A stretch of 64,000 nt of DNA from Solwaraspora sp. WMMD792 (GCF_029626105.1 NZ_JARUBH010000009.1:868001-932000); one strand, 5' to 3'. Positions 7,125-17,579 are shown, counted from the first letter of the stretch. Notes: generated by a model not told the origin, from the letters alone. A program made the numbers and translations.

Positions 7125-8008
7125 TGGCGAGCGCCCATCCGCAACCGGCGGCGGCCGCCGGCCGCCGCCGACCACACCGGCCCCGACCGCAACTGGTGCC
7201 GACGGCCGTGCTGCTGGTCGGCGCGGTCTACTGCCTGCTGCCGGTGGCCTGGGTGCTGGTCGCCGCCACCAAGAGTGGATCGAGCCTGTTCAGTACGTTC
7301 ACCTTCGCCCCTGGTGACGCGCTGTTCGCCAACATCGCTGAGCTGTCGGCGTACCGGGGTGGGCAGTTCTGGCGCTGGGTGGCCAACACCGCGCTGTACG
7401 CCGGGGTCGGCGCGGCGGCCTCGGCGGCGCTGTCCGGGCTCAGCGGCTACACGCTGGCCAAGTACGACTTTGTCGGCCGGTCGGCGACCTTCAACATGCT
7501 GCTCGCCGGGGTGCTGGTGCCCGGGGTGATCCTCGCCGTGCCGCAGTACCTGCTGTTGGCCAAGATCGGGCTGGCCGACACCTACTGGTCGGTCCTGCTG
7601 CCCAGCATCATCAGCCCGTACGGCATCTACCTGGCCCGGATCTACGCGGCGGCGGCGGTGCCGGACACGGTCATCGAGGCGGCCCGCACCGACGGCGCCG
7701 GCGAGTTCCGGATCTTCCGCAAGGTGGCGGTGCCGATGATGATCCCCGGCCTGATCACGGTGTTCCTCTTCCAGTTCGTGGCGATCTGGAACAACTTCCT
7801 GCTGCCGTTCATCATGCTCGCCGACGACGACAAGTTTCCCGTCACCCTCGGCCTGTACACCCTGCTGAACCAGGGTTCGACCACCCCGGCCCTGTACAGT
7901 CTGGTGATCACCGGATCGCTGTTGTCGATCATCCCGTTGGTGGCGCTCTTCCTCTCCCTGCAGCGGTACTGGCGGATCGACCTGCTGTCCGGATCGATCA
8001 AGGCCTAA
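7124..8008 (+). CDS. Sugar ABC transporter permease (MalG-like)
   Basis: This 294-residue membrane protein has six predicted helices and the EAA loop IEAARTDGAGEFRIFRKVAVP. Its ATG at 7124 shares one base with the TGA of the previous permease, so the two subunits should be made in equal amounts. A Pro/Arg/His-rich cytoplasmic tail precedes the first helix. It pairs with the gene at 6153 to form the heterodimeric channel for the sugar captured by the lipoprotein at 4847. The same frame remains open far upstream, but that part overlaps the first permease and has no membrane character. Confidence 0.92.
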   Translation: MASAHPQPAAAAGRRRPHRPRPQLVPTAVLLVGAVYCLLPVAWVLVAATKSGSSLFSTFTFAPGDALFANIAELSAYRGGQFWRWVANTALYAGVGAAASAALSGLSGYTLAKYDFVGRSATFNMLLAGVLVPGVILAVPQYLLLAKIGLADTYWSVLLPSIISPYGIYLARIYAAAAVPDTVIEAARTDGAGEFRIFRKVAVPMMIPGLITVFLFQFVAIWNNFLLPFIMLADDDKFPVTLGLYTLLNQGSTTPALYSLVITGSLLSIIPLVALFLSLQRYWRIDLLSGSIKA

Positions 8009-8018
8009 GGAAGACAAT

Positions 8019-9053
8019 GTGACCGTGGCCGGAACCGAGCGTAACCGGGCCCGCCCCGAGCGGGCCCGCCCCACCATGGACGACGTCGCCGCGGTCGCCG
8101 GGGTGTCCCGGGGCACCGTGTCACGGTGGCTCAACGGCGGGCACAACGTCAGCGGCCCGGCCGCCGAGGCCGTCGAGCGGGCCATTCGCAAGACCGGGTA
8201 CGTGGTCAACCAGCACGCCCGCAGCCTGGTCACCCAGCGGTCCGACTCGGTGGCGTTCATCCTGTCCGAGCCGCAGGACCGGCTCTTCGAGGACCCGAAC
8301 TTCAACGCCCTGCTGCGCGGCTGCACCCAGGCGCTGGCCGAGCGGGACATCACCCTGCTGCTGACCATCGCCGGCACCTCCGAGGACCGCAAACGGGTCG
8401 GCCGCTACGTCACCGCCGGCCACGTCGACGGCGCGCTACTGGTCTCCACCCACGCCGGCAGCCCGCTGATCGACGAGCTGAAGGGGCGCGGGCTGCCGTT
8501 CGTGGTCTGCGGCAAACCGCTCGGTCACGAACGCGACGTCAGCTACGTCGCCGCCGACGACCGCGACGGCGCCCGGCAGATGGTCTCCTATCTGCGCTCC
8601 CGGGGACACCGGACGATCGCCACCATCACCGGCCCGCTGGACACCCCGGGTGGGGTCGAGCGCCTCGCCGGCTACCACGACGTGCTCGGTGACACCGAGC
8701 CTCGGCTGGTGGTCACCGGCGACTACACCCGGGCCGGGGGAGAGGCGGCGATGGAGCAGCTGCTGCGCCAGGCCCCCGACCTCGACGCCGTCTTCGTCAG
8801 CTCCGACCTGATGGCCGCCGGGGCGATCGCCGCGCTGCACCGGGCCGGCCGCCGGGTGCCGCAGGACGTCGCCGTCGGCGGCTTCGACGACTCCGAGGTG
8901 GCCACCGCGTCGCTGCCACCGTTGACCACCATCCGCCAGCCGCTGGGGCGGATCAGCGCCGAAATGGTCCGGCTGCTGCTCGGCCACCTGGCCGGCGACT
9001 CACACGCCGCAGTGATTCTGCCGACCGAACTGGTGGTGCGCGGCAGCGCCTGA
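8019..9053 (+). CDS. LacI-family regulator of the galactan locus
   Basis: The 344-residue protein starts at a GTG with AAGGAAG five bases upstream. An N-terminal LacI helix-turn-helix (TMDDVAAVAGVSRGTVSRWL, residues about 13-32) leads into a hinge helix. A periplasmic-binding-protein-like effector domain follows, containing DAVFVSSDLMAAGAIAAL and ending in LPTELVVRGSA. It is the last gene of the importer operon, 10 bp after the permease. Four GCGC-centred palindromes of the LacI type lie before the three transcription units, so it is very likely the local repressor, released by galactose or a galacto-oligosaccharide. The effector is inference. Confidence 0.92.
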   Translation: MTVAGTERNRARPERARPTMDDVAAVAGVSRGTVSRWLNGGHNVSGPAAEAVERAIRKTGYVVNQHARSLVTQRSDSVAFILSEPQDRLFEDPNFNALLRGCTQALAERDITLLLTIAGTSEDRKRVGRYVTAGHVDGALLVSTHAGSPLIDELKGRGLPFVVCGKPLGHERDVSYVAADDRDGARQMVSYLRSRGHRTIATITGPLDTPGGVERLAGYHDVLGDTEPRLVVTGDYTRAGGEAAMEQLLRQAPDLDAVFVSSDLMAAGAIAALHRAGRRVPQDVAVGGFDDSEVATASLPPLTTIRQPLGRISAEMVRLLLGHLAGDSHAAVILPTELVVRGSA

Positions 9054-9110
9054 CCATCGGTGCCCGGATCGGGTCTGCCGGGCGGCATCGCATCTGGCAG
9101 GCTGGTAACT

Positions 9111-9950
9111 GTGCTGACGGTGCCGGTGCGGCAGCTCGGGGAGACCGAGCGTGGGGCGGTGGAGCGGATCCTCGACCTCGACCCCTATGCCGCGCCGCAG
9201 GTCGCGGAGCGGATCGCCGCGCGCGGACTGGCCTGGTGGCGTACGGACGGCCGGGTCTTCGGCTACGGGCCGCGCCGCCAACTCGAGTCGCTGTGCTGGC
9301 TCGGCGGGCATCTGACCCCGGTGCACGCCTCGCCGGCCGCGGTCGCGGCGTTCGCCGACCGGCTCGCCATCGAGGAACGGGTCTGCTCGTCGATCGTCGG
9401 TCGGGCCGACGCCGTACTCGGGCTGTGGGAGCGGATCGGCGGGCAGTGGGGTCCGGCCCGGGAGATCCGCGCCGACCAGCCGCTGCTGATCGCCGACCGG
9501 CCGCCGGCGGTGCCGGCTGACCCGGGGGTACGCCTGGTCCGGCCCGACGAGATCGACCTGCTCTTCCCGGCGGCGGTGGCCATGTACACCGAGGAGGTCG
9601 GCGTCTCCCCGGTCGCCGAGGACGCCGGGCGCGGCTACCGGCGGCGGGTCGCCGAGCTGGTCCGGGCCCGTCGCACGTACGCCCGGATCGTCGACGGCAC
9701 GGTGGTCTTCAAGGCCGAGTTGGCCGTCGTCACCCGGCACACCGCGCAGGTCCAAGGGGTCTGGGTCGATCCGGTCTGGCGCGGCCGGGGGCTGGCCACC
9801 CCGGCGATGGCGGCGGTGGTCCGCGACGCGCTGCGCCGGGTCGCCCCGACCGTCAGCCTGTACGTCAACGACTACAACATCGCCGCCCGCCGGGTCTACG
9901 ACCGGTGCGGGTTCCGCCGGGTCGGCTCCTTCGCCACCGTGCTCTTCTGA
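9111..9950 (+). CDS. GNAT-family N-acetyltransferase with DUF4081-like N-terminal half
   Basis: The protein has 279 residues. The N-terminal half (about 1-135) resembles the DUF4081 domain that precedes GNAT domains in actinobacteria. The C-terminal half is a GNAT fold with the acetyl-CoA loop WVDPVWRGRGLATPAM (Q/RxxGxG/A type) and the late strand SLYVNDYNIAARRVYDRCGF. The frame is open from 9060, but GTG 9111 (VLTVPVRQLGE) is where similarity to the family should begin; there is no good ribosome site for either start. It would transfer acetyl from acetyl-CoA to an unknown amine. It stands alone between the galactan operon and the hydrolase. The substrate cannot be read from the sequence. Confidence 0.85.
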   Translation: MLTVPVRQLGETERGAVERILDLDPYAAPQVAERIAARGLAWWRTDGRVFGYGPRRQLESLCWLGGHLTPVHASPAAVAAFADRLAIEERVCSSIVGRADAVLGLWERIGGQWGPAREIRADQPLLIADRPPAVPADPGVRLVRPDEIDLLFPAAVAMYTEEVGVSPVAEDAGRGYRRRVAELVRARRTYARIVDGTVVFKAELAVVTRHTAQVQGVWVDPVWRGRGLATPAMAAVVRDALRRVAPTVSLYVNDYNIAARRVYDRCGFRRVGSFATVLF

Positions 9951-9981
9951 GCCCTGCCGTACCCGGCGTCGGCACGGTCCG

Positions 9982-10047
9982 GCCACGCCGACCCGTCCAG
10001 CCCGCCACGCCGACCCGTCCAGCCCGCCACGCCGACCCGTCCAGCGG
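9982..10047. repeat. Three tandem copies of a 22-bp repeat
   Basis: The unit begins GCCACGCCGACCCGTCCAGC and is repeated three times (9982, 10004, 10026), the last copy ending with a changed tail. It lies between the acetyltransferase stop and the palindrome at 10081. It has no spacers, so it is not a CRISPR. Its role, if any, is unknown. Confidence 0.85.
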
Positions 10048-10080
10048 CCACGGAACCGCGTCAGACAGTGGTGCTACTCT

Positions 10081-10111
10081 GTTGGGCATTCGTCCAGGAC
10101 GAACGCCCAAC
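10081..10111. promoter_or_regulatory. 31-bp palindrome before the alpha/beta hydrolase
   Basis: GTTGGGC-A-TTCGTCC, a central A, then GGACGAA-C-GCCCAAC: two 7-bp arm pairs are perfectly complementary with one mismatch between them. It follows a possible -10 TACTCT (10075-10080), so it sits at the presumed transcription start, as a repressor operator would. No T-run follows on either side, which argues against a terminator. The protein that binds it is not evident nearby. Confidence 0.6.
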
Positions 10112-10209
10112 AGGTTGGGAGGCTGGGCGGCCGGGGCGGCTCAGCACGCACCGCCTGGTGCGGCCAGTCAGCCTGCCAGGCGGATCCATCAGCGAAAGGC
10201 GACCCGATC

Positions 10210-11124
10210 GTGGTACACGGTTACCGGGAATTCGTCCGTCGCCAACGCGCCGAGTTGCACGCCGGCAGCACCCTGGTCACGACCCGGGCCGGTCTCGTGG
10301 AGTACGGGGAGGCCGGTCCACCCGCTGGCCGGGCGGTGCTGCTCTTCCCGGGCGGTGGTGGCGGCTACGAGCAGATCCACCTGCTCGACTCACTACCCGA
10401 CCTCGGCTGCCGGGTGATCGGTTGGTCGCGACCCGGCTACCTGCGCACCCCACTCGATGTCGGACGGACGTTCGTCGAGCAGGCCGACGCCGCGAAGGCA
10501 CTACTCGACGAACTCGAAGTCGGCACAGTAGTCGTCTACGGCATCAGCGGTGGCGGACCGATCGCCATCGAATTCGCCCGCCGCTATCCCGAACAGGCCG
10601 AGGCGCTCATCCTCGAATCCGCCGTCACCCGCCACTACGCACCCGCCATATCGCCCATCATCAAAACGATCTATCTGAGCCCGCTCGGGACCTGGCTGAC
10701 CGCCCAACTCGTCCAACGCCTCCCCCGTGCGGCCCTGCACGACTTCGTCCGCCAGGAGTCCACCCTCGACCGGCAGGCCCGCCGCGCGACCGTCGACTGG
10801 ATCCTCGCCGACGACCGACGTCTGGCATACGCCAAAGCCGTCATGGCGGCACTCACCCCGTTCGAGGACCGCGCTGCCGGGCTGGACAACGACCTTCGGC
10901 AGTGGGCCAGGCTGGACGACTCAACCACCGCCGGCATCACCTGCCCAACGCTGATCCTGCACGGCACCCACGACGGTGACGCCGACCCGGCCCACGCCCG
11001 CCACGCCGCCACCACCATCCCGCAAGCCACCCTGCACCTGGTCCCCGGCGGCTGGCACCTGCTGCCTTTGTCGATCAACGGCACGACCACCCGACAAGCC
11101 AGGTCCACGTTCCTAGCCGAGTGA
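10210..11124 (+). CDS. Alpha/beta-hydrolase family protein
   Basis: The 304-residue protein starts at GTG 10210, preceded by AAAGGCGA. The oxyanion region LLFPGGGGGYEQ (about 45-55), the nucleophile elbow YGISGGGP with S113, an acidic residue in GTHDGDADP (about 258) and His in GGWHLLPL (about 285) give a complete Ser-Asp-His triad. There is no signal peptide, so it should act in the cytoplasm on an ester, amide or similar bond. The gene stands alone behind the palindrome at 10081. Its last 12 bp overlap the convergent membrane glycosyltransferase at 11113. The substrate is unknown; epoxide hydrolase, haloperoxidase-like and lactonase members share this fold. Confidence 0.88.
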   Translation: MVHGYREFVRRQRAELHAGSTLVTTRAGLVEYGEAGPPAGRAVLLFPGGGGGYEQIHLLDSLPDLGCRVIGWSRPGYLRTPLDVGRTFVEQADAAKALLDELEVGTVVVYGISGGGPIAIEFARRYPEQAEALILESAVTRHYAPAISPIIKTIYLSPLGTWLTAQLVQRLPRAALHDFVRQESTLDRQARRATVDWILADDRRLAYAKAVMAALTPFEDRAAGLDNDLRQWARLDDSTTAGITCPTLILHGTHDGDADPAHARHAATTIPQATLHLVPGGWHLLPLSINGTTTRQARSTFLAE

Positions 11125-12765
11125 CACCTGGTAGAGCCGGCCCGCCGTGGCGCACGGGTCCGGGGTCACCCGGGCGGCGGTGGCGAGCAACGAGCGTGGC
11201 TCGTCGTGTCGCCGGACGGTCCCCGGATCGGCGTCCGGCGGCAGCGGCAGCAGGTAGAGCTGGTTGATTCCCCAGGTGGCGATCCAGTCGCGCCGTTTCG
11301 CGACCGGGATGTCGGCGAAGTTGTCCGGGAAGAACGCCGTCCGCCGGCCGGTCAGGGCGCTGTGCCGGCCGACCTCCGTGCTGGTGACGATGGTCAGCGT
11401 CCCGTCGCTGCGGCAGCGCCGCAGCTCCTGTTCGACGACGCCGCCGGTGAGGCTTTCCGGGTCCGCCGGCACGGTGGTGAGCTGGTATCCGAGCGCCCAG
11501 CCGACCGGCAGCGTCAGCAGCAGCACGCCGACGGCATGCCCGGTCCGCCGTCCGGACAGCCAGGCCGGGACCGGGGCCCGGAGGATCAGCACGACGGCGG
11601 TCAGCAGCGTCAGCAGCACGGCCAGGCTGAGATAGCGTCGGCTCAGGTACCCGGTGCTGAGCTCGGAGAAGGCGACCTGTGCGGTGAATACGGCCAGCGC
11701 GGCCAGGCCGACCAGCAGCCATCGCGGCCCACCGCGCAGCGGTCTGCGGCTTGGGCGCGGCTGTAGCCTGCGGCCGCGGCGCAGCAGCAGGCCGGCGGCG
11801 ACGGCGGTGGCCACGACGGTGGGTGCCCAGACCGCGGCCTTGGCCGCCTGCAGGACCGCCGCCGGCGCGTTGCCGGCGAGCCGGGCCAGCCAGCCGATCG
11901 GGTCGTCGGTGGCGGTCGGAAGCTGATCGACGTCGATCACGTCGGTGACGTACAGCTGTGGCACGGCCAGCGCGATGATGCGGTTGTCCGCCGGGAACGG
12001 CGTACCGAAGTGGGCCAGCCCGTAGACCGCCCACGGTGACATCACGAGGGTGAAGACCAAGCCGGCCGGCACCAGCCAGCGCCAGTCCCGGCGGCGGATC
12101 ACGACCAGCAGCACCGCCAGGAGCAGCACCGCCGGCAGGGTGTCCGGCCGGGTGAGCACCAGGCCGCCAGCGGCGGCCCCGGCGGCCGGCCAGGCCAGCG
12201 CCGCTCGCCGATCGGTGCTGACCAGCGCGAGGACCAGCAGGCTGAGCAGCAGCCCGGCCAGCGGGAAGGTCCGCGCGGTGAGAATCTCGTCGAGGAACGG
12301 CACGAAGCCGAGCAGGCCCACGGTGACGACCGGCCCGAGCCCGGGTACGCCGACGCGTCGGCCGAGCACCGACAGCACCGCCGCCATGGCCAGCACGCAG
12401 CCGGCGGCGGCCAGCAGACCGGCCTGCGGCCCGGTGCCGGTCAGCGCGGCGGTGATGCCGACCAGGATCGGCCAGAGCGGACCACAGCCCATCGAGTACG
12501 GCTCGGGCGACTGGTAGCTGTGCCGGGAGGCGATCCGGAAGAAGTCGCCGCCGAGGGTCTGGGACAGTTCGTAGTAGCGCCACGAGTCCGGGTTGTACGG
12601 CGGACCGTCCCAGTAGTAGAGCAGCAGGAACGCCAGTACGCCGACGAGCGTCGCCCAGCCGGCGGCGGGCAGCCAGTCGGGCACCGACAGGGTCCGCCTG
12701 GCGTCGACCGCGTCGCTGGTCGGGTCGTCGGTCGGTCGCCCGGTGAGCCGGGTGAGCGTGCTCAC
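11113..12765 (-). CDS. Polytopic GT-C-like glycosyltransferase, putative
   Basis: The 550-residue protein has about 11 predicted transmembrane helices. The first extracytoplasmic loop contains YNPDSWRYYELSQ, with an acidic residue where GT-C (ArnT/PMT-like) enzymes bind a polyprenyl-phosphate sugar. The C-terminal part is a soluble outer domain (from about residue 430). It would transfer a sugar from a lipid carrier to a surface acceptor; the assignment rests on topology and the loop motif, not on close family recognition. It overlaps the upstream GT2 gene by 4 bp. GT-C enzymes are often paired with GT2 polyprenyl-phosphate sugar synthases, which supports a two-step system. Confidence 0.7.
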   Translation of the reverse strand: MSTLTRLTGRPTDDPTSDAVDARRTLSVPDWLPAAGWATLVGVLAFLLLYYWDGPPYNPDSWRYYELSQTLGGDFFRIASRHSYQSPEPYSMGCGPLWPILVGITAALTGTGPQAGLLAAAGCVLAMAAVLSVLGRRVGVPGLGPVVTVGLLGFVPFLDEILTARTFPLAGLLLSLLVLALVSTDRRAALAWPAAGAAAGGLVLTRPDTLPAVLLLAVLLVVIRRRDWRWLVPAGLVFTLVMSPWAVYGLAHFGTPFPADNRIIALAVPQLYVTDVIDVDQLPTATDDPIGWLARLAGNAPAAVLQAAKAAVWAPTVVATAVAAGLLLRRGRRLQPRPSRRPLRGGPRWLLVGLAALAVFTAQVAFSELSTGYLSRRYLSLAVLLTLLTAVVLILRAPVPAWLSGRRTGHAVGVLLLTLPVGWALGYQLTTVPADPESLTGGVVEQELRRCRSDGTLTIVTSTEVGRHSALTGRRTAFFPDNFADIPVAKRRDWIATWGINQLYLLPLPPDADPGTVRRHDEPRSLLATAARVTPDPCATAGRLYQVSLG

Positions 12766-13847
12766 GCCCCCGCCCCGATCGTCGCCGCAGGATCGTCCGA
12801 CGCGGCCGGACGGGCCGATGCGGCCGGCCGGGCCGATGCGGCCGGGCGATCGTCCGGTGCGCCGGTCACCTGTTCACGCAGGTACGGCCCCGGCGGTCCG
12901 GCGGTACGCCCCGGTGCCTCGGCCGGTTGGCAGACCACCACGTCGCGGACCGCGTACATCGGCCGGGCCCGCACCTCGACCAGGATCCGGGCCAGGTACT
13001 CACCGAGCACCCCGAGGATCAGGAACAGACCGGTGAATCCGCCGGACACCAGGATCGCCAGGGTGGTCCACCCTTCGATGGGGTCGGACTTGACGAGGAA
13101 CACCGCGACCGCGTACGCGATGCCGGCGAGCGACAGGGCGCCGAACGTCAGGGACAGCCGGTGTGCCACCCGTGGCCCGAAGTCGGAGAACGACAGCAGG
13201 ATGTCGAAGGCCAGGCTTGACGTCTCCCGGTCCAGCCGCCGGCGCCCGGCGGTGTCCACCGTGGTCCGGGTGTACCGCAGGTGTTCGTGCCGGTGCCCGA
13301 GGATCGCGTACAGGGCCTTGCGGTAGCGGACCTTCTCCCGCATGGCGAGCATCGCGGCCAGCGTGCGTCGGGAGGTCAGTCTCAGACGCTCGGTACGCAG
13401 TGGGGTGTCGAGGTCGCTGTACCGGTTGACCAGGCGGTAGAACACCCGGCTGCGCAGCGGCCCGTCGTCGCCGCTGGCGGTGACGATGTCGCAGCCGCCG
13501 GTGGTGGCGCGCTCGTACATCCGGGCGAGGATGTCCAGCGGGAAGTCCACTGTCGGGCTCTCCAGTTCGAAGACCCAGTCGCCCATCGCCCGGTCCAGCC
13601 CGGCCTTCATCCCGGCCTCCACACCGTGTCGCCGGGCCAGCCGGACCACCACCGCGTTGAGCTGGTAACGGTCCGCGTACTCGCGCACCAACGGGGTGGG
13701 GTCGGTGGTGGAGTTGTCGTCGACCACCACCAGTTCGTGCAGGTCGAAGTGCTCGCTGAGCCAGGGCCCCAACTGCGCCAGGAAGCGGTCCAGATCCGGG
13801 TCGTCGCGGCAGTAGAGCACGAAGCTTACGAAGGTCTGGTACGCCAC
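12762..13847 (-). CDS. GT2-family glycosyltransferase with C-terminal membrane hairpin (polyprenyl-P-sugar synthase-like)
   Basis: The 361-residue protein has a GT-A fold with the nucleotide-sugar motif ELVVVDDNSTTDPT (about 38-51) and a weakly acidic ELESPTVDFP where the usual DxD metal site lies. Two predicted helices (about 215-285) are arranged as in DPM1/GtrB enzymes that attach a sugar to polyprenyl phosphate. The last 50 residues are low-complexity with the repeat RPAASA, encoded by a GC-rich tandem repeat near 12800-12850, and are probably disordered. It overlaps the FAD oxidoreductase gene by 22 bp and the GT-C gene by 4 bp. It likely charges the lipid carrier used by the GT-C protein; the sugar is unknown. 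Confidence 0.75.
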   Translation of the reverse strand: MAYQTFVSFVLYCRDDPDLDRFLAQLGPWLSEHFDLHELVVVDDNSTTDPTPLVREYADRYQLNAVVVRLARRHGVEAGMKAGLDRAMGDWVFELESPTVDFPLDILARMYERATTGGCDIVTASGDDGPLRSRVFYRLVNRYSDLDTPLRTERLRLTSRRTLAAMLAMREKVRYRKALYAILGHRHEHLRYTRTTVDTAGRRRLDRETSSLAFDILLSFSDFGPRVAHRLSLTFGALSLAGIAYAVAVFLVKSDPIEGWTTLAILVSGGFTGLFLILGVLGEYLARILVEVRARPMYAVRDVVVCQPAEAPGRTAGPPGPYLREQVTGAPDDRPAASARPAASARPAASDDPAATIGAGA

Positions 13848-14971
13848 AGCGCCTCATCCAGGTCGTAGATCGTGTTGACTTTTCCGCTGAACAACGTGGT
13901 GAACGGAGGGTGCACGCTCTCGGTCCGGATCAGGGTCGGACGGGAGTCGTCGACCTCTGCCGTCCGCAGCACGGTCTTGACCGTGCAGAGGCTCTCGACC
14001 TGGCGTAGCTGTCCGGCTGTCGGCAGGAATCGGCGGGTCAGGGTGTGCATGTACGGGTAGCCGCCGGCCGGCCGGGCGGGGCAGGTCCCGCAGTTGGCCA
14101 GGGCGGCCGGCGCGCAGTCCGGCGTCCGGCGCTGGCAGGGAAAGGTCGGCAGGGTGTCGGTGCTGGTCAGCCGGGGGGTGTAGGCCACCGCGCTGAGGCT
14201 GTGCCAGGGGGTGTGCCCGAACGGCATCAACGAGAAGAACGGACCGTCCAGCACGGTGACCGCAGTGTCCCGGTGGGCCGGGGCGTCGACCAGCACCATC
14301 TCGCACAGCTCGTACTTGAGCGGCACCGGCGGCAGGCCGAACGTGGCGAGCAGGGCGTTGGTGCCGGCGTAGGTCGCGTTGACGACCGCGCCGGCTTCCA
14401 CCTGGGTGCCGGACCGCAGCGTCGCCCGCCAGACCGTACCGTCTCGTCCGGCCTCGACCACGGTGTCGCCGAGGAACCACCGCAGCCGGTCCGCGTGGGC
14501 GTCGAGGCGGGCGAGCAGCGCGGTGCGCAGCGCCGGTGCATCGAAGCTGAACTCGTCGGTCTCGTACGCCGCCTCCACAGCGCCGTGCAGGAAGAACTCG
14601 GCCGGGTCGATCCGGCTGGCCGGCACGCCGACGGTGGTACAGAACTTCTCGAAGTAGGCGGCGTCCACGAAGGACCCTTCCGTCGCGATCGCGTACACGC
14701 TGCGGAAGCGGTGGTTGACCGCGGTGGGGAAGTCGCGCAGGAACCGTTCGTAGTAGCTGGCTGACCGCAGGGCCGTGTACACGCTGCGTGGGTAGTGGTA
14801 GCCGTTGTGGCCGCGGGCCTGGTTGATCAGGCTGGCCCGCACCAGCGGGCGCCGGTCGATGTCGACCACCGCGACGGACCCGCCGTGGGCGAGTTGTCGC
14901 CGGGCGGCCCACAGCCCGAAGACTCCTGCGCCGAATATGAGCGTATCAACAGAAATGCCCCCTCTACCCAC
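13826..14971 (-). CDS. FAD-dependent oxidoreductase of the glycan cluster (DAO-like)
   Basis: The 381-residue protein has an N-terminal dinucleotide-binding motif FGAGVFG (about 14-20) and a DAO-like fold with NQARGHNGYHYPRS (about 50-63). A Cys cluster (CX6CX7CX2C) lies about residues 280-300 in a Pro-rich loop and could bind a metal or form disulfides. It starts at GTG 14971; no good ribosome site precedes it, so it may be leaderless. It is the first gene of the three-gene minus-strand operon with the GT2 and GT-C genes, and is divergent from the epimerase operon. In polysaccharide clusters such enzymes may oxidise or aminate a sugar intermediate; the reaction here is unknown. Confidence 0.75.
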   Translation of the reverse strand: MGRGGISVDTLIFGAGVFGLWAARRQLAHGGSVAVVDIDRRPLVRASLINQARGHNGYHYPRSVYTALRSASYYERFLRDFPTAVNHRFRSVYAIATEGSFVDAAYFEKFCTTVGVPASRIDPAEFFLHGAVEAAYETDEFSFDAPALRTALLARLDAHADRLRWFLGDTVVEAGRDGTVWRATLRSGTQVEAGAVVNATYAGTNALLATFGLPPVPLKYELCEMVLVDAPAHRDTAVTVLDGPFFSLMPFGHTPWHSLSAVAYTPRLTSTDTLPTFPCQRRTPDCAPAALANCGTCPARPAGGYPYMHTLTRRFLPTAGQLRQVESLCTVKTVLRTAEVDDSRPTLIRTESVHPPFTTLFSGKVNTIYDLDEALWRTRPS

Positions 14972-15026
14972 GGCAGAAAGCTAGCATCCATCTTGTCCCG
15001 ATTTGTCGCTTAGTGAGAGGTGAGTC

Positions 15027-15845
15027 ATGCTCACAGGTTTGGTCGGCCACACCGGCTTCGTCGGCGGCAACCTGGCCCGACAACGCGCCTACGATCTCAA
15101 GGTCAACCGGGCCACCGTCGCGGCCATCGACGGGCAGCGGTTCACCCGGCTGGTGATCAGCGCCGCCCCCGGCGTCAAATGGCGGGCGAACGCCGACCCG
15201 GACGCCGACCGCGCCGCGATCGACGCCCTGACCAGCCACCTGCGCACCACGATGGCCGACGAAGCCGTCCTCATCTCCACCATCGACGTCTACCCGCAGC
15301 CGCAGGGCGTGGACGAGACGACGTCCGTCGAACCGGCCGACCACCCGCAGGCGTACGGCCGCAACCGGATCCGACTGGAACGCTTCGTCCAGCGGCACTA
15401 CCCGCGCAGCCTGGTGGTCCGGCTGCCGGCCCTGTTCGGGCCGGACCTGCGCAAGAACCTCGTCTACGACCTGGCCACCGGACGCACCGAGGAGTTCTGC
15501 CACCGCGACTCGACGTTCCAGTTCTACGACCTGCGGCGACTCACCGCCGACCTGGACCGGGCCGCCGCCGCCGGGCTGAGCCTGGTCAACCTGGCGACCG
15601 AGCCGCTCGCCGCGCAGACCGTGGCACAGCAGGTCTTCGGACGTACCCTGACCTGCGACACGGTGGCCCGGGTCGACTACGACATGCGTACCCGGCACGC
15701 CGCCGTCTTCGGTGCCGACGGGCCCTACGTCAGCGGCCGCGACGAGACGATCACCCGGCTGCGGGAGTTCGCCGACGACCAGGCGGCAGGTGCGCGCCCG
15801 GCCGGAGAAGGCGTGCGTCCGGCCGGAGAGCGGGTGGCGGTCTGA
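15027..15845 (+). CDS. NAD(P)-dependent epimerase/reductase-like protein
   Basis: The 272-residue protein starts at ATG 15027 behind GAGAGGTGAG. A Rossmann motif GHTGFVGGNL opens it (residues 6-15). STIDVYP, then AYGRNRIRLERF (YxxxR in place of YxxxK) mark an extended-SDR-like active site, and RLPALFGPDL is typical of sugar nucleotide epimerases. The protein is shorter than UDP-sugar epimerases (about 310-340). The changed lysine suggests an altered or weakened dehydrogenase step. The C-terminus has a small duplicated segment (RPAGEGV/RPAGERV). It is coupled by a one-base stop/start overlap to the TIM-barrel gene. It probably modifies the sugar used by this cluster; the substrate is unknown. 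Confidence 0.72.
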   Translation: MLTGLVGHTGFVGGNLARQRAYDLKVNRATVAAIDGQRFTRLVISAAPGVKWRANADPDADRAAIDALTSHLRTTMADEAVLISTIDVYPQPQGVDETTSVEPADHPQAYGRNRIRLERFVQRHYPRSLVVRLPALFGPDLRKNLVYDLATGRTEEFCHRDSTFQFYDLRRLTADLDRAAAAGLSLVNLATEPLAAQTVAQQVFGRTLTCDTVARVDYDMRTRHAAVFGADGPYVSGRDETITRLREFADDQAAGARPAGEGVRPAGERVAV

Positions 15846-16675
15846 TGTCCGAGTCGACCATCAAGGTGGCGGTGAGCAACATCGCCTGGCAGCCCGCCGA
15901 CGACGAGAAGGTCGCCGACCTGCTGCGCCACGCGGGAGTGGCCGGCGTCGAGGTGGCACCGACGAAGATCTGGCCGGACCTGACCGAGGTCTCCCTCGAC
16001 CAGGCACGCGGGTACGGGCGGATGTGGGCCCGCGCCGGCCTGCCGGTGGTCGCCGCCCAGTCGCTGCTGTACGGACGCCCCGAGCTGACGGTGTTCGGGC
16101 CGCGCCGGGAAGACCTCGTCGCGTACCTGTGCCGGGTGATCGACCTGTGCGCCGCGATGGGTGCCACCGCCCTGGTCTTCGGCAGCCCGCGCAACCGGCG
16201 ACGCAACGGCCTGCTGGACGAGACGGCGGACCGGATCGCCGCTGACGTCTTCGGCCGACTGGCCCGCCGGGCACACGCCGCCGGGACGAGCCTGTGCCTG
16301 GAGGCCAACCCCGCCGAGTACGGCGCCGACTACCTGGTCCGGGCGGAGGAGGCGGCGAGGCTGGTGGCGGCGGTCGACTCGCCGGGGCTGCGACTGCACC
16401 TGGACACCGCCTGCATGGCGCTGGCCGGCGACGACGCGGCGGCCTGCGCCCACAGTTTCGCTCCGCTGCTGCGTCACGCCCATCTCAGTGAGCCCGACCT
16501 GGCGGCGGTCGGCACCCCGGCCCGCGCCCACGCCGACTTCGTCGCCGCGCTGCGGGCCGTCGGCTACGACCGGTACCTCAGTGTGGAGATGCGTCCGTCG
16601 GACGGCGACCCGCTCGCCGCCGTCGATCGCGCCGCCCGGTACGCCGTGGCACTGTGCGGTGGTGAGCGGCCATGA
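15845..16675 (+). CDS. TIM-barrel sugar (phosphate) isomerase/epimerase family protein
   Basis: The 276-residue protein is a xylose-isomerase-like TIM barrel. Visible metal-site motifs are GVEVAPTKIWP near the N-terminus, LCLEANPAEYGADY (Glu), LHLDTACMAL (Asp) and YLSVEMRPSDG (Glu). ATG 15845 shares a base with the stop of the epimerase-like gene, and the end overlaps the GT2 gene by 4 bp, so all three genes are translationally linked. In surface-polysaccharide clusters this type is expected to isomerise a ketose or epimerise a sugar; the exact reaction cannot be called. There is no signal peptide, so it is cytoplasmic. Confidence 0.78.
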   Translation: MSESTIKVAVSNIAWQPADDEKVADLLRHAGVAGVEVAPTKIWPDLTEVSLDQARGYGRMWARAGLPVVAAQSLLYGRPELTVFGPRREDLVAYLCRVIDLCAAMGATALVFGSPRNRRRNGLLDETADRIAADVFGRLARRAHAAGTSLCLEANPAEYGADYLVRAEEAARLVAAVDSPGLRLHLDTACMALAGDDAAACAHSFAPLLRHAHLSEPDLAAVGTPARAHADFVAALRAVGYDRYLSVEMRPSDGDPLAAVDRAARYAVALCGGERP

Positions 16676-17523
16676 CCGGCACCCGACAGCTCGACGTCCC
16701 GGGCGACCAGGTACCAGGCGACCAGGTACCGGCACTGTCCCGGGACCACGACCGGCGGATCCCGCGCCACGACCGACGCGACTTCGCCCCCCGGCGCAGC
16801 CGGTACGCGGTGGTGGTGCCGGTGCTCAACGAGGGCGACCGGCTGCGGGCGCAGCTGCGCCGGATGCACGACCACGGGCACGGCCTGGACGTGCTGATCG
16901 CCGACGGGGGCAGCACGGACGGCTCCCTCGCCGACGACTTCCTGGCCGCCCAAGGCGTACGGTCGGTGCTGGTCAAACGCGGTCCGGGCCGGCTCAGCGC
17001 GCAACTGCGGATGGCCTTCGCCGCAGCCCTCGACGACGGCTACCACGGAGTGGTCACCGTGGACGGCAACGGCAAGGACGGCGTCGAGGCGATCGGCCGG
17101 TTCCGGGACCGGCTGGACGCCGGGTACGACTACGTGCAGGGTTCCCGGTTCGTCCCGGGCGGCGTGGCGGTCAACACGCCCTGGGCGCGGTACCTCGGCA
17201 TCCGGCTGCTGCACGCGCCGTTGCTGTCGGCCGGCGCCCGCACCTGGTACACCGACACCACCAACGGCTTCCGGGGCCACTCGGCCCGGCTGCTCGCCGA
17301 CCCCCGGGTCGGCGTGTTCCGCGACGTGTTCGACGCGTACGAACTGCTGGCGTACCTGCCGGTGCGGGCGGCCCGGCTGGGGCTGCGGGTCTGCGAGGTG
17401 CCGGTGACCCGGGCCTACCCGGCGGGAGCGGTGCCGACCAAGATCAAAGGCTGGTCCGGGAACCTGGACCTGCTGGCCGTCGCCGCCCGCGCCGCAACCG
17501 GCCGCTACGACCCGGTACCCTGA
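16672..17523 (+). CDS. GT2-family glycosyltransferase, soluble
   Basis: The 283-residue protein has a GT-A fold: YAVVVPVLNEGDRL (about 44-57), LIADGGSTDGSL, and VTVDGNGKDG at the DxD position, a variant with DGN. There are no clear membrane helices. The first 20 residues carry a direct repeat (PGDQV twice, DNA copies of ACCAGG near 16705-16729). It ends the plus-strand operon and overlaps the isomerase gene by 4 bp. The 3' end lies inside a near-perfect tandem duplication (17497-17547) in which the stop codon is formed at the repeat junction. It should transfer a sugar, perhaps the one made by the two upstream enzymes; donor and acceptor are unknown. Confidence 0.82.
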   Translation: MTGTRQLDVPGDQVPGDQVPALSRDHDRRIPRHDRRDFAPRRSRYAVVVPVLNEGDRLRAQLRRMHDHGHGLDVLIADGGSTDGSLADDFLAAQGVRSVLVKRGPGRLSAQLRMAFAAALDDGYHGVVTVDGNGKDGVEAIGRFRDRLDAGYDYVQGSRFVPGGVAVNTPWARYLGIRLLHAPLLSAGARTWYTDTTNGFRGHSARLLADPRVGVFRDVFDAYELLAYLPVRAARLGLRVCEVPVTRAYPAGAVPTKIKGWSGNLDLLAVAARAATGRYDPVP

Positions 17524-17547
17524 CCGGCCGCCACGACCCGGCACCTG
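17497..17547. repeat. Tandem duplication spanning the GT2 stop codon
   Basis: Two 25-26-bp copies beginning ACCGGCCGC, followed by T or C and then ACGACCCGG (17497-17522 and 17523-17547), differ by two substitutions and one indel. The TGA of the glycosyltransferase at 17521-17523 bridges the copies. Slippage here would change the protein's end. Confidence 0.8.
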
Positions 17548-17579
17548 ACCCGGTCCGGCGGCGCAGCGCCCGGTTGAGC

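Follow-up and report, generated by a model that had tools for sequence, protein, structure and literature searches.

In this work, we have analysed a 64,000-nucleotide stretch of DNA from Solwaraspora sp. WMMD792 (the window), in which six genes in two divergent arms form the conserved part of an island of 7.6 kb (positions 9951–17579). The arm on the minus strand comprises gene 1 (11113–12765), coding for a membrane protein of 550 aa with at least eight hydrophobic segments, a probable GT-C-type transferase that is the variable and presumably the acceptor-specific part of the set; gene 2 (12762–13847), coding for a GtrB/PgfS-like GT2 protein (GT2a; PgfS/ArnC-like in the Pfam/NCBIfam profiles) with two hydrophobic segments at its C-terminus, predicted to be membrane helices, and an altered DxD motif (ELESP); and gene 3 (13826–14971), coding for a flavoprotein of the DAO superfamily that matches the Pfam DAO profile (PF01266) with 57.9 bits, the cut-off being 27.9. 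The arm on the plus strand comprises gene 4 (15027–15845), coding for an RmlD-like SDR (Epimerase profile, 21.4 against a cut-off of 20.9); gene 5 (15845–16675), coding for a xylose-isomerase-like TIM-barrel isomerase or epimerase (AP_endonuc_2, 77.9 bits); and gene 6 (16672–17523), coding for a DPM-synthase/AglJ-like GT2 protein (GT2b; GT2 profile, 27.3 bits) that has no hydrophobic segment and is a probable polyprenyl-phosphate-sugar synthase. The joins inside the arms overlap by 4, 22, 1 and 4 bases, so the ORF calls agree with the preliminary description of this DNA, which had placed six genes here with overlapping joins in each arm. The 55 bases between the arms (14972–15026) are a probable bidirectional promoter, in which no sigma-70-like match was found. 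The island also holds an alpha/beta hydrolase gene (10210–11124), which lies outside the six-gene unit, is absent from one relative (G114) and is present as a fragment in another (G093).

Our results show that the six genes are one mobile unit, which is under selection and conserved across phyla. Within the genus, the home site is empty in four of seven genomes (G034, G079, G060 and G105), and in three of these four the sequences corresponding to window positions 7500–9950 and 17580 onwards are separated by at most about 30 bases. G105 bears the block at another chromosomal locus, where window positions 11118–17513 (6.4 kb) align end to end with 83% identity among unrelated neighbours (an SSB, CobD and a DUF4143 ATPase). 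In G114 the six genes occupy the home site with 94% identity, and in G093 (L055/L047) a decayed remnant is found there, in which 13451–16320 is gone, and with it the DAO gene, the SDR gene and half of the TIM gene, and in which gene 1 is damaged or interrupted. In the two sister species G114 and G105 all six reading frames are intact, and the dN/dS values of 0.13–0.35 reveal purifying selection, from which we conclude that the six genes are real and selected. Taken together, the relocated copy, the empty sites, the remnant and the dN/dS values indicate that the set is selected where it is intact, and that it is acquired, relocated and lost as a whole. The intact set is present in three of the 201 genomes of the family, all of one genus, and one further genome carries a decayed remnant; five other family genomes give weaker DAO matches, in segments of 30–47% identity. 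The comparison across the family that the preliminary description had proposed thus rules out a family-wide wall trait.

Most of the set was found again in four phyla: Actinomycetota, Bacillota, Bacteroidota and Pseudomonadota. Among 396 actinobacterial genomes, this type of DAO was found in two, the source genome and G488, which belongs to another family, and GT2b in exactly these two. The G488 copy (L043) has the same divergent order with 45–56% identity per protein, and the position of gene 1 is taken by a membrane protein of 995 aa, for which our comparisons gave no relation to gene 1. A phage-integrase-like gene (L043:627–1523) lies a few kb from this copy. A GTDB scan queried with DAO peptides alone gave 25 loci in Bacillota and Bacteroidota, with a DAO identity of 36–43%; GT2a adjoins DAO in all 25, and SDR was seen in 15, TIM in 14 and GT2b in 9, several of the contigs being short and ending inside the cluster. 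In eight of the DAO-GT2a loci we saw neither SDR nor TIM nor GT2b, which together with the limited occurrence of GT2b suggests that the chemistry may differ between variants. Among the DAO genes, the one in L017 has an in-frame stop and the one in L028 a split reading frame, which may reflect pseudogenes, phase variation or assembly errors.

In the Bacillota, Bacteroidota and Pseudomonadota copies the genes are mostly on one strand, and the Pseudomonadota copies come from plasmid records. The order is SDR-TIM-GT2b-DAO-GT2a in Azospirillum, and SDR-TIM-GT2a-like-DAO-GtrA-GT2b in Ruegeria, Cereibacter and Sphingomonas. On the 10.8-kb Psychrobacter plasmid pA22P4, which has mobilisation and replication genes and little further cargo beyond the cassette, SDR, TIM, an SMR gene and DAO are followed by GT2a fused to GT2b and by a membrane protein; the fusion is a single frame of 592 aa (L065:5410–7188), of which the plasmid annotation calls the second half only. 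The Cereibacter copy (L063) shows another fusion, of GT2b with a PMT_2-type GT-C protein. The matrices of pairwise distances are strongly correlated among the five proteins (r 0.76–0.90, a level reached by none of 2000 permutations), a measure of co-inheritance rather than of physical interaction that partly reflects plain host relatedness. Two observations stand beside these: the exosortase gene xrtD directly follows the Ruegeria copy (L062:11585–13237), a possible link to surface-protein sorting, and a contig of 385,934 bases from a viral collection (L068), which could be host DNA, carries a DAO gene with SDR- and TIM-like genes after it.

What could the three putative sugar-modifying enzymes do? 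The AF2 model of DAO (pLDDT 87) has E. coli GlpD as its best fold match (Z 31.5, rmsd 2.7, 341 aligned residues), and other DAO-superfamily enzymes follow with Z values of 26–30 (glycine oxidase, 29.4); both the profile and the fold thus place the protein in this superfamily. The VIA/Foldseek search listed only DAO-superfamily enzymes, which does not decide between oxidation of a hydroxyl and of an amine. A profile search for FAD_binding_4 in the oxidase gave no match, which sets it apart from the DprE1-type VAO enzymes. The motif NQARxHxG[YF]HYPRS is universal among the members. Four cysteines (C279, C286, C294 and C297, in the pattern CX6CX7CX2C; about 14081–14137 of the window) are invariant in Actinomycetota, Bacillota and Bacteroidota and absent in Pseudomonadota, and suggest a metal knuckle in the former branch only. 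In the SDR, Y110 and R114 are invariant across the four phyla, forming a YxxxR motif instead of the YxxxK pair of classical and extended SDRs. The Glu-Asp-His-Glu metal quartet of the TIM protein (E154, D188, H214 and E249, numbered from position 15842) is intact, aligns with that of D-tagatose 3-epimerase and is invariant; the nearest solved relatives are D-tagatose/D-psicose 3-epimerases, and the 3-keto-D-glucoside 4-epimerase 6wn6 is also among the matches.

Variant loci without SDR and TIM bear on the same question. DAO-GT2a is accompanied by a DegT aminotransferase in five Lachnospiraceae loci (L031–L034 and L036) and in Bacteroidota L030, mostly with another DPM-like GT2 present too; no DegT was seen in L035, and the Olleya locus (L014) has a Gfo/Idh/MocA reductase. 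Enzymes of the TIM epimerase, SDR, DegT and Gfo/Idh/MocA families commonly act on ketones, and since this holds for all the partner families of DAO, we propose that DAO makes a ketosugar, from a substrate that may be a free, a nucleotide-linked or a lipid-linked sugar.

The two GT2 proteins both fall, by their sequences, with the GT-A polyprenyl-phosphate-sugar synthases: GT2a matches GtrB (sll0501) in the PDB profile comparison at 6e-40, and GT2b matches DPM synthase at 5e-11. In GT2a the second Asp of the DAD motif of GtrB is missing, and the Ruegeria, Cereibacter and Sphingomonas proteins have lost additional acidic residues; lacking a normal DxD, GT2a is of unsure activity. In GT2b, almost every aligned member of the four phyla retains DGGSxDG and DGNxKD, the second corresponding to the DAD of DPM synthase. 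Since the GT-A acidic motifs are eroded in the relatives' GT2a and kept in GT2b, we infer that loading is more likely the task of GT2b, with GT2a as its partner in the membrane; gene 2, which the preliminary description had likened to a polyprenyl-P-sugar synthase, need not carry out this step. A soluble GT-A enzyme that needs a separate membrane protein has been described (PMC8035078), an arrangement that the Psychrobacter fusion of GT2a to GT2b fits.

Gene 1 is the variable member. Its homologues were found only in four genomes of the genus among the 201 of the family, and it matched no Pfam family and no PDB profile. Its N-terminus (NPDSWRYYELSQTL...GPLWPILVG) bears a weak likeness to PMT_2-type GT-C enzymes, and this motif, the hydropathy of the protein and the analogy with other systems make a GT-C-type transferase probable. 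The AF2 model (pLDDT 35) was unusable. A profile of gene 1 matched neither the GT-C partner in L063 nor that in L065, nor the L043 membrane protein, a result that carries no evidence of difference because the profile was built from three near-identical rows. The GT-C-like partners in relatives also vary, from a PMT_2 type (L063) to a GtrII-like protein (L022), and GT-C enzymes of different systems may show low sequence similarity (PMC8035078).

A flippase gene was not found linked within the window cluster, nor was one recognised at the G488 copy. Flippase-like genes do lie inside the cassette elsewhere: GtrA in Ruegeria, Cereibacter, Sphingomonas and L030, SMR in Psychrobacter, and a pair of EamA genes in L024, where they come after GT2a and before a protein of the same cluster as the L022 GtrII-like protein. 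The missing flippase is thus a local feature of this strain's cassette. From this absence, together with that of polymerase and export genes, the preliminary description had argued that the cluster may decorate an existing wall polymer or a protein; the absence of a linked gene stands, and the argument is weakened by the flippase-like genes of the relatives and by two GtrA genes in the source genome that are unlinked to the cassette. An unlinked flippase also has a precedent in Listeria, where GtcA is unlinked to GtlA and GtlB (PMC8035078).

We consider it probable that this mobile six-gene cassette serves to produce one unusual sugar, place it on a membrane lipid and attach it to an acceptor outside the cell. 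In the pathway that we propose, the DAO flavoprotein would oxidise a sugar hydroxyl to a ketone, the metal-dependent TIM enzyme would shift the configuration beside the ketone, and the RmlD-like SDR would reduce it; in the variant loci the ketosugar may be aminated instead of being epimerised and reduced. GT2b would then put the sugar on polyprenyl phosphate, and GT2a, whose fold is supported by profiles, would serve as its partner in the membrane or act as another synthase. The lipid-sugar would be turned over by a flippase, for which GtrA, SMR or EamA are the candidates in relatives and which in this strain is probably encoded away from the cassette, and the variable multi-spanning protein would move the sugar to an external acceptor. 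For the loading, flipping and transfer steps, known systems serve as the model (PMC8035078, PMC11127046). A more specific version, which we put forward tentatively and hold to be unlikely, is that GT2a, having decayed as a catalyst, holds a lipid-phosphate-linked sugar for DAO to oxidise, the ketone then being resolved by TIM and the YxxxR SDR or by DegT, so that different sugars could come from one mobile core. The preliminary description was largely right: its sequence of sugar making, lipid loading and transfer is backed by the linked flippases, the GT-C-like proteins and the two fusions in relatives.

Other readings of the same genes have to be weighed. The fold of DAO is near those of glycine and sarcosine oxidases, and the DegT aminotransferase of the variant loci would also suit an amine or imino oxidase, the product being an amino- or nitrogen-modified sugar instead of an epimerised one; we regard this as unlikely, given that the closest fold, GlpD, is a hydroxyl-oxidising enzyme and that the window cluster is without an aminotransferase. 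Somewhat less likely still is that the two GT2 proteins act one after the other to assemble a short oligosaccharide or a polymer unit, and thus a new glycan rather than a single sugar. The presence of two different GT2 genes and the many Bacillota and Pseudomonadota copies within larger polysaccharide loci speak for it, but the unit is without polymerase, initiating phosphoglycosyltransferase and exporter, standalone copies exist on the 10.8-kb plasmid and in L016, and the GT2a active site is decayed in L062–L064.

A soluble tailoring cluster for a secondary metabolite, giving a glycosylated small molecule, might be expected from unusual sugar enzymes in an actinobacterial host; we find it very improbable, since no biosynthetic core genes adjoin the cluster, a membrane transferase and a GtrB-like GT2 are present, and the set is conserved in gut Bacillota and on Pseudomonadota plasmids. 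That two unrelated operons became neighbours by chance is suggested by the divergent orientation only, and it is practically out of the question: the block moves whole, as in G105, the G488 layout is the same, the genes stand in one-strand order in other phyla, the histories of the proteins correlate and fusions occur. The arms are together in every relative that has both, so the separation that the preliminary description had named as evidence against a single unit was not seen. A cassette that makes, lipid-loads and transfers one sugar is the reading that we prefer.

How does such a cassette compare with known systems? The mycobacterial methylthioxylose locus (Rv0539–Rv0541c) likewise pairs a polyprenyl-P-sugar-synthase-like GT2 with a GT-C enzyme adding a rare sugar, but it is not known to have DAO, TIM or SDR genes. 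Gram-positive transmembrane glycosylation (CsbB-GtcA-YfhO, GtlA-GtcA-GtlB; PMC8035078) shares with the cassette a predicted GT-A loader and a variable, putatively GT-C-like enzyme, and with the cassettes of relatives a GtrA-type flippase; the characterised systems that the cited review names add Gal or GlcNAc (PMC8035078), whereas the cassette brings DAO, TIM and SDR for its own sugar and two GT2 proteins. In the three-component pentofuranose systems (GT136; PMC11127046) and DprE1/DprE2, a lipid-linked sugar is similarly modified by dedicated enzymes, flipped and transferred by a GT-C enzyme. Their starting point is a polyprenyl phosphoribose synthase or the PRPP route, and they use DprE1/DprE2 homologues for Araf, whereas the cassette has DAO and an RmlD-like SDR, and the window's six genes gave no match to the phosphoribose synthase, PRPP-route or DprE1/DprE2 families. 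The O-antigen gtr seroconversion systems (GtrA-GtrB-Gtr*; PMC11127046) also keep their donor genes constant and exchange the membrane enzyme that is specific for the acceptor, although they use plain glucose and have no sugar-making genes. E. coli YcjQ/YcjR/YcjS (PMC11543891) resembles the other half of the cassette, with a dehydrogenase, a TIM-barrel 3-keto-glucoside isomerase/epimerase and a second dehydrogenase, but it belongs to a carbohydrate import and metabolism operon without glycosyltransferases or lipid carrier, and its oxidoreductases differ from those of the cassette. Our literature searches, which covered few subscription papers, found no paper on the gene set or its plasmid and no description of the set in work on actinobacterial polyprenyl-phosphate glycosylation.

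If our proposal is correct, a plasmid-borne, mobile cassette that crosses phyla would let bacteria acquire a rare surface sugar in a single step, and a so far unassigned flavoprotein family, which has a GtrB-like GT2 as its neighbour in all GTDB loci of the scan, would be tied to a testable chemistry. With these homologues, both the sugar and the order of the enzymes can be tested directly, and an unusual envelope sugar would be predicted in gut Bacillota, alphaproteobacteria and actinomycetes.
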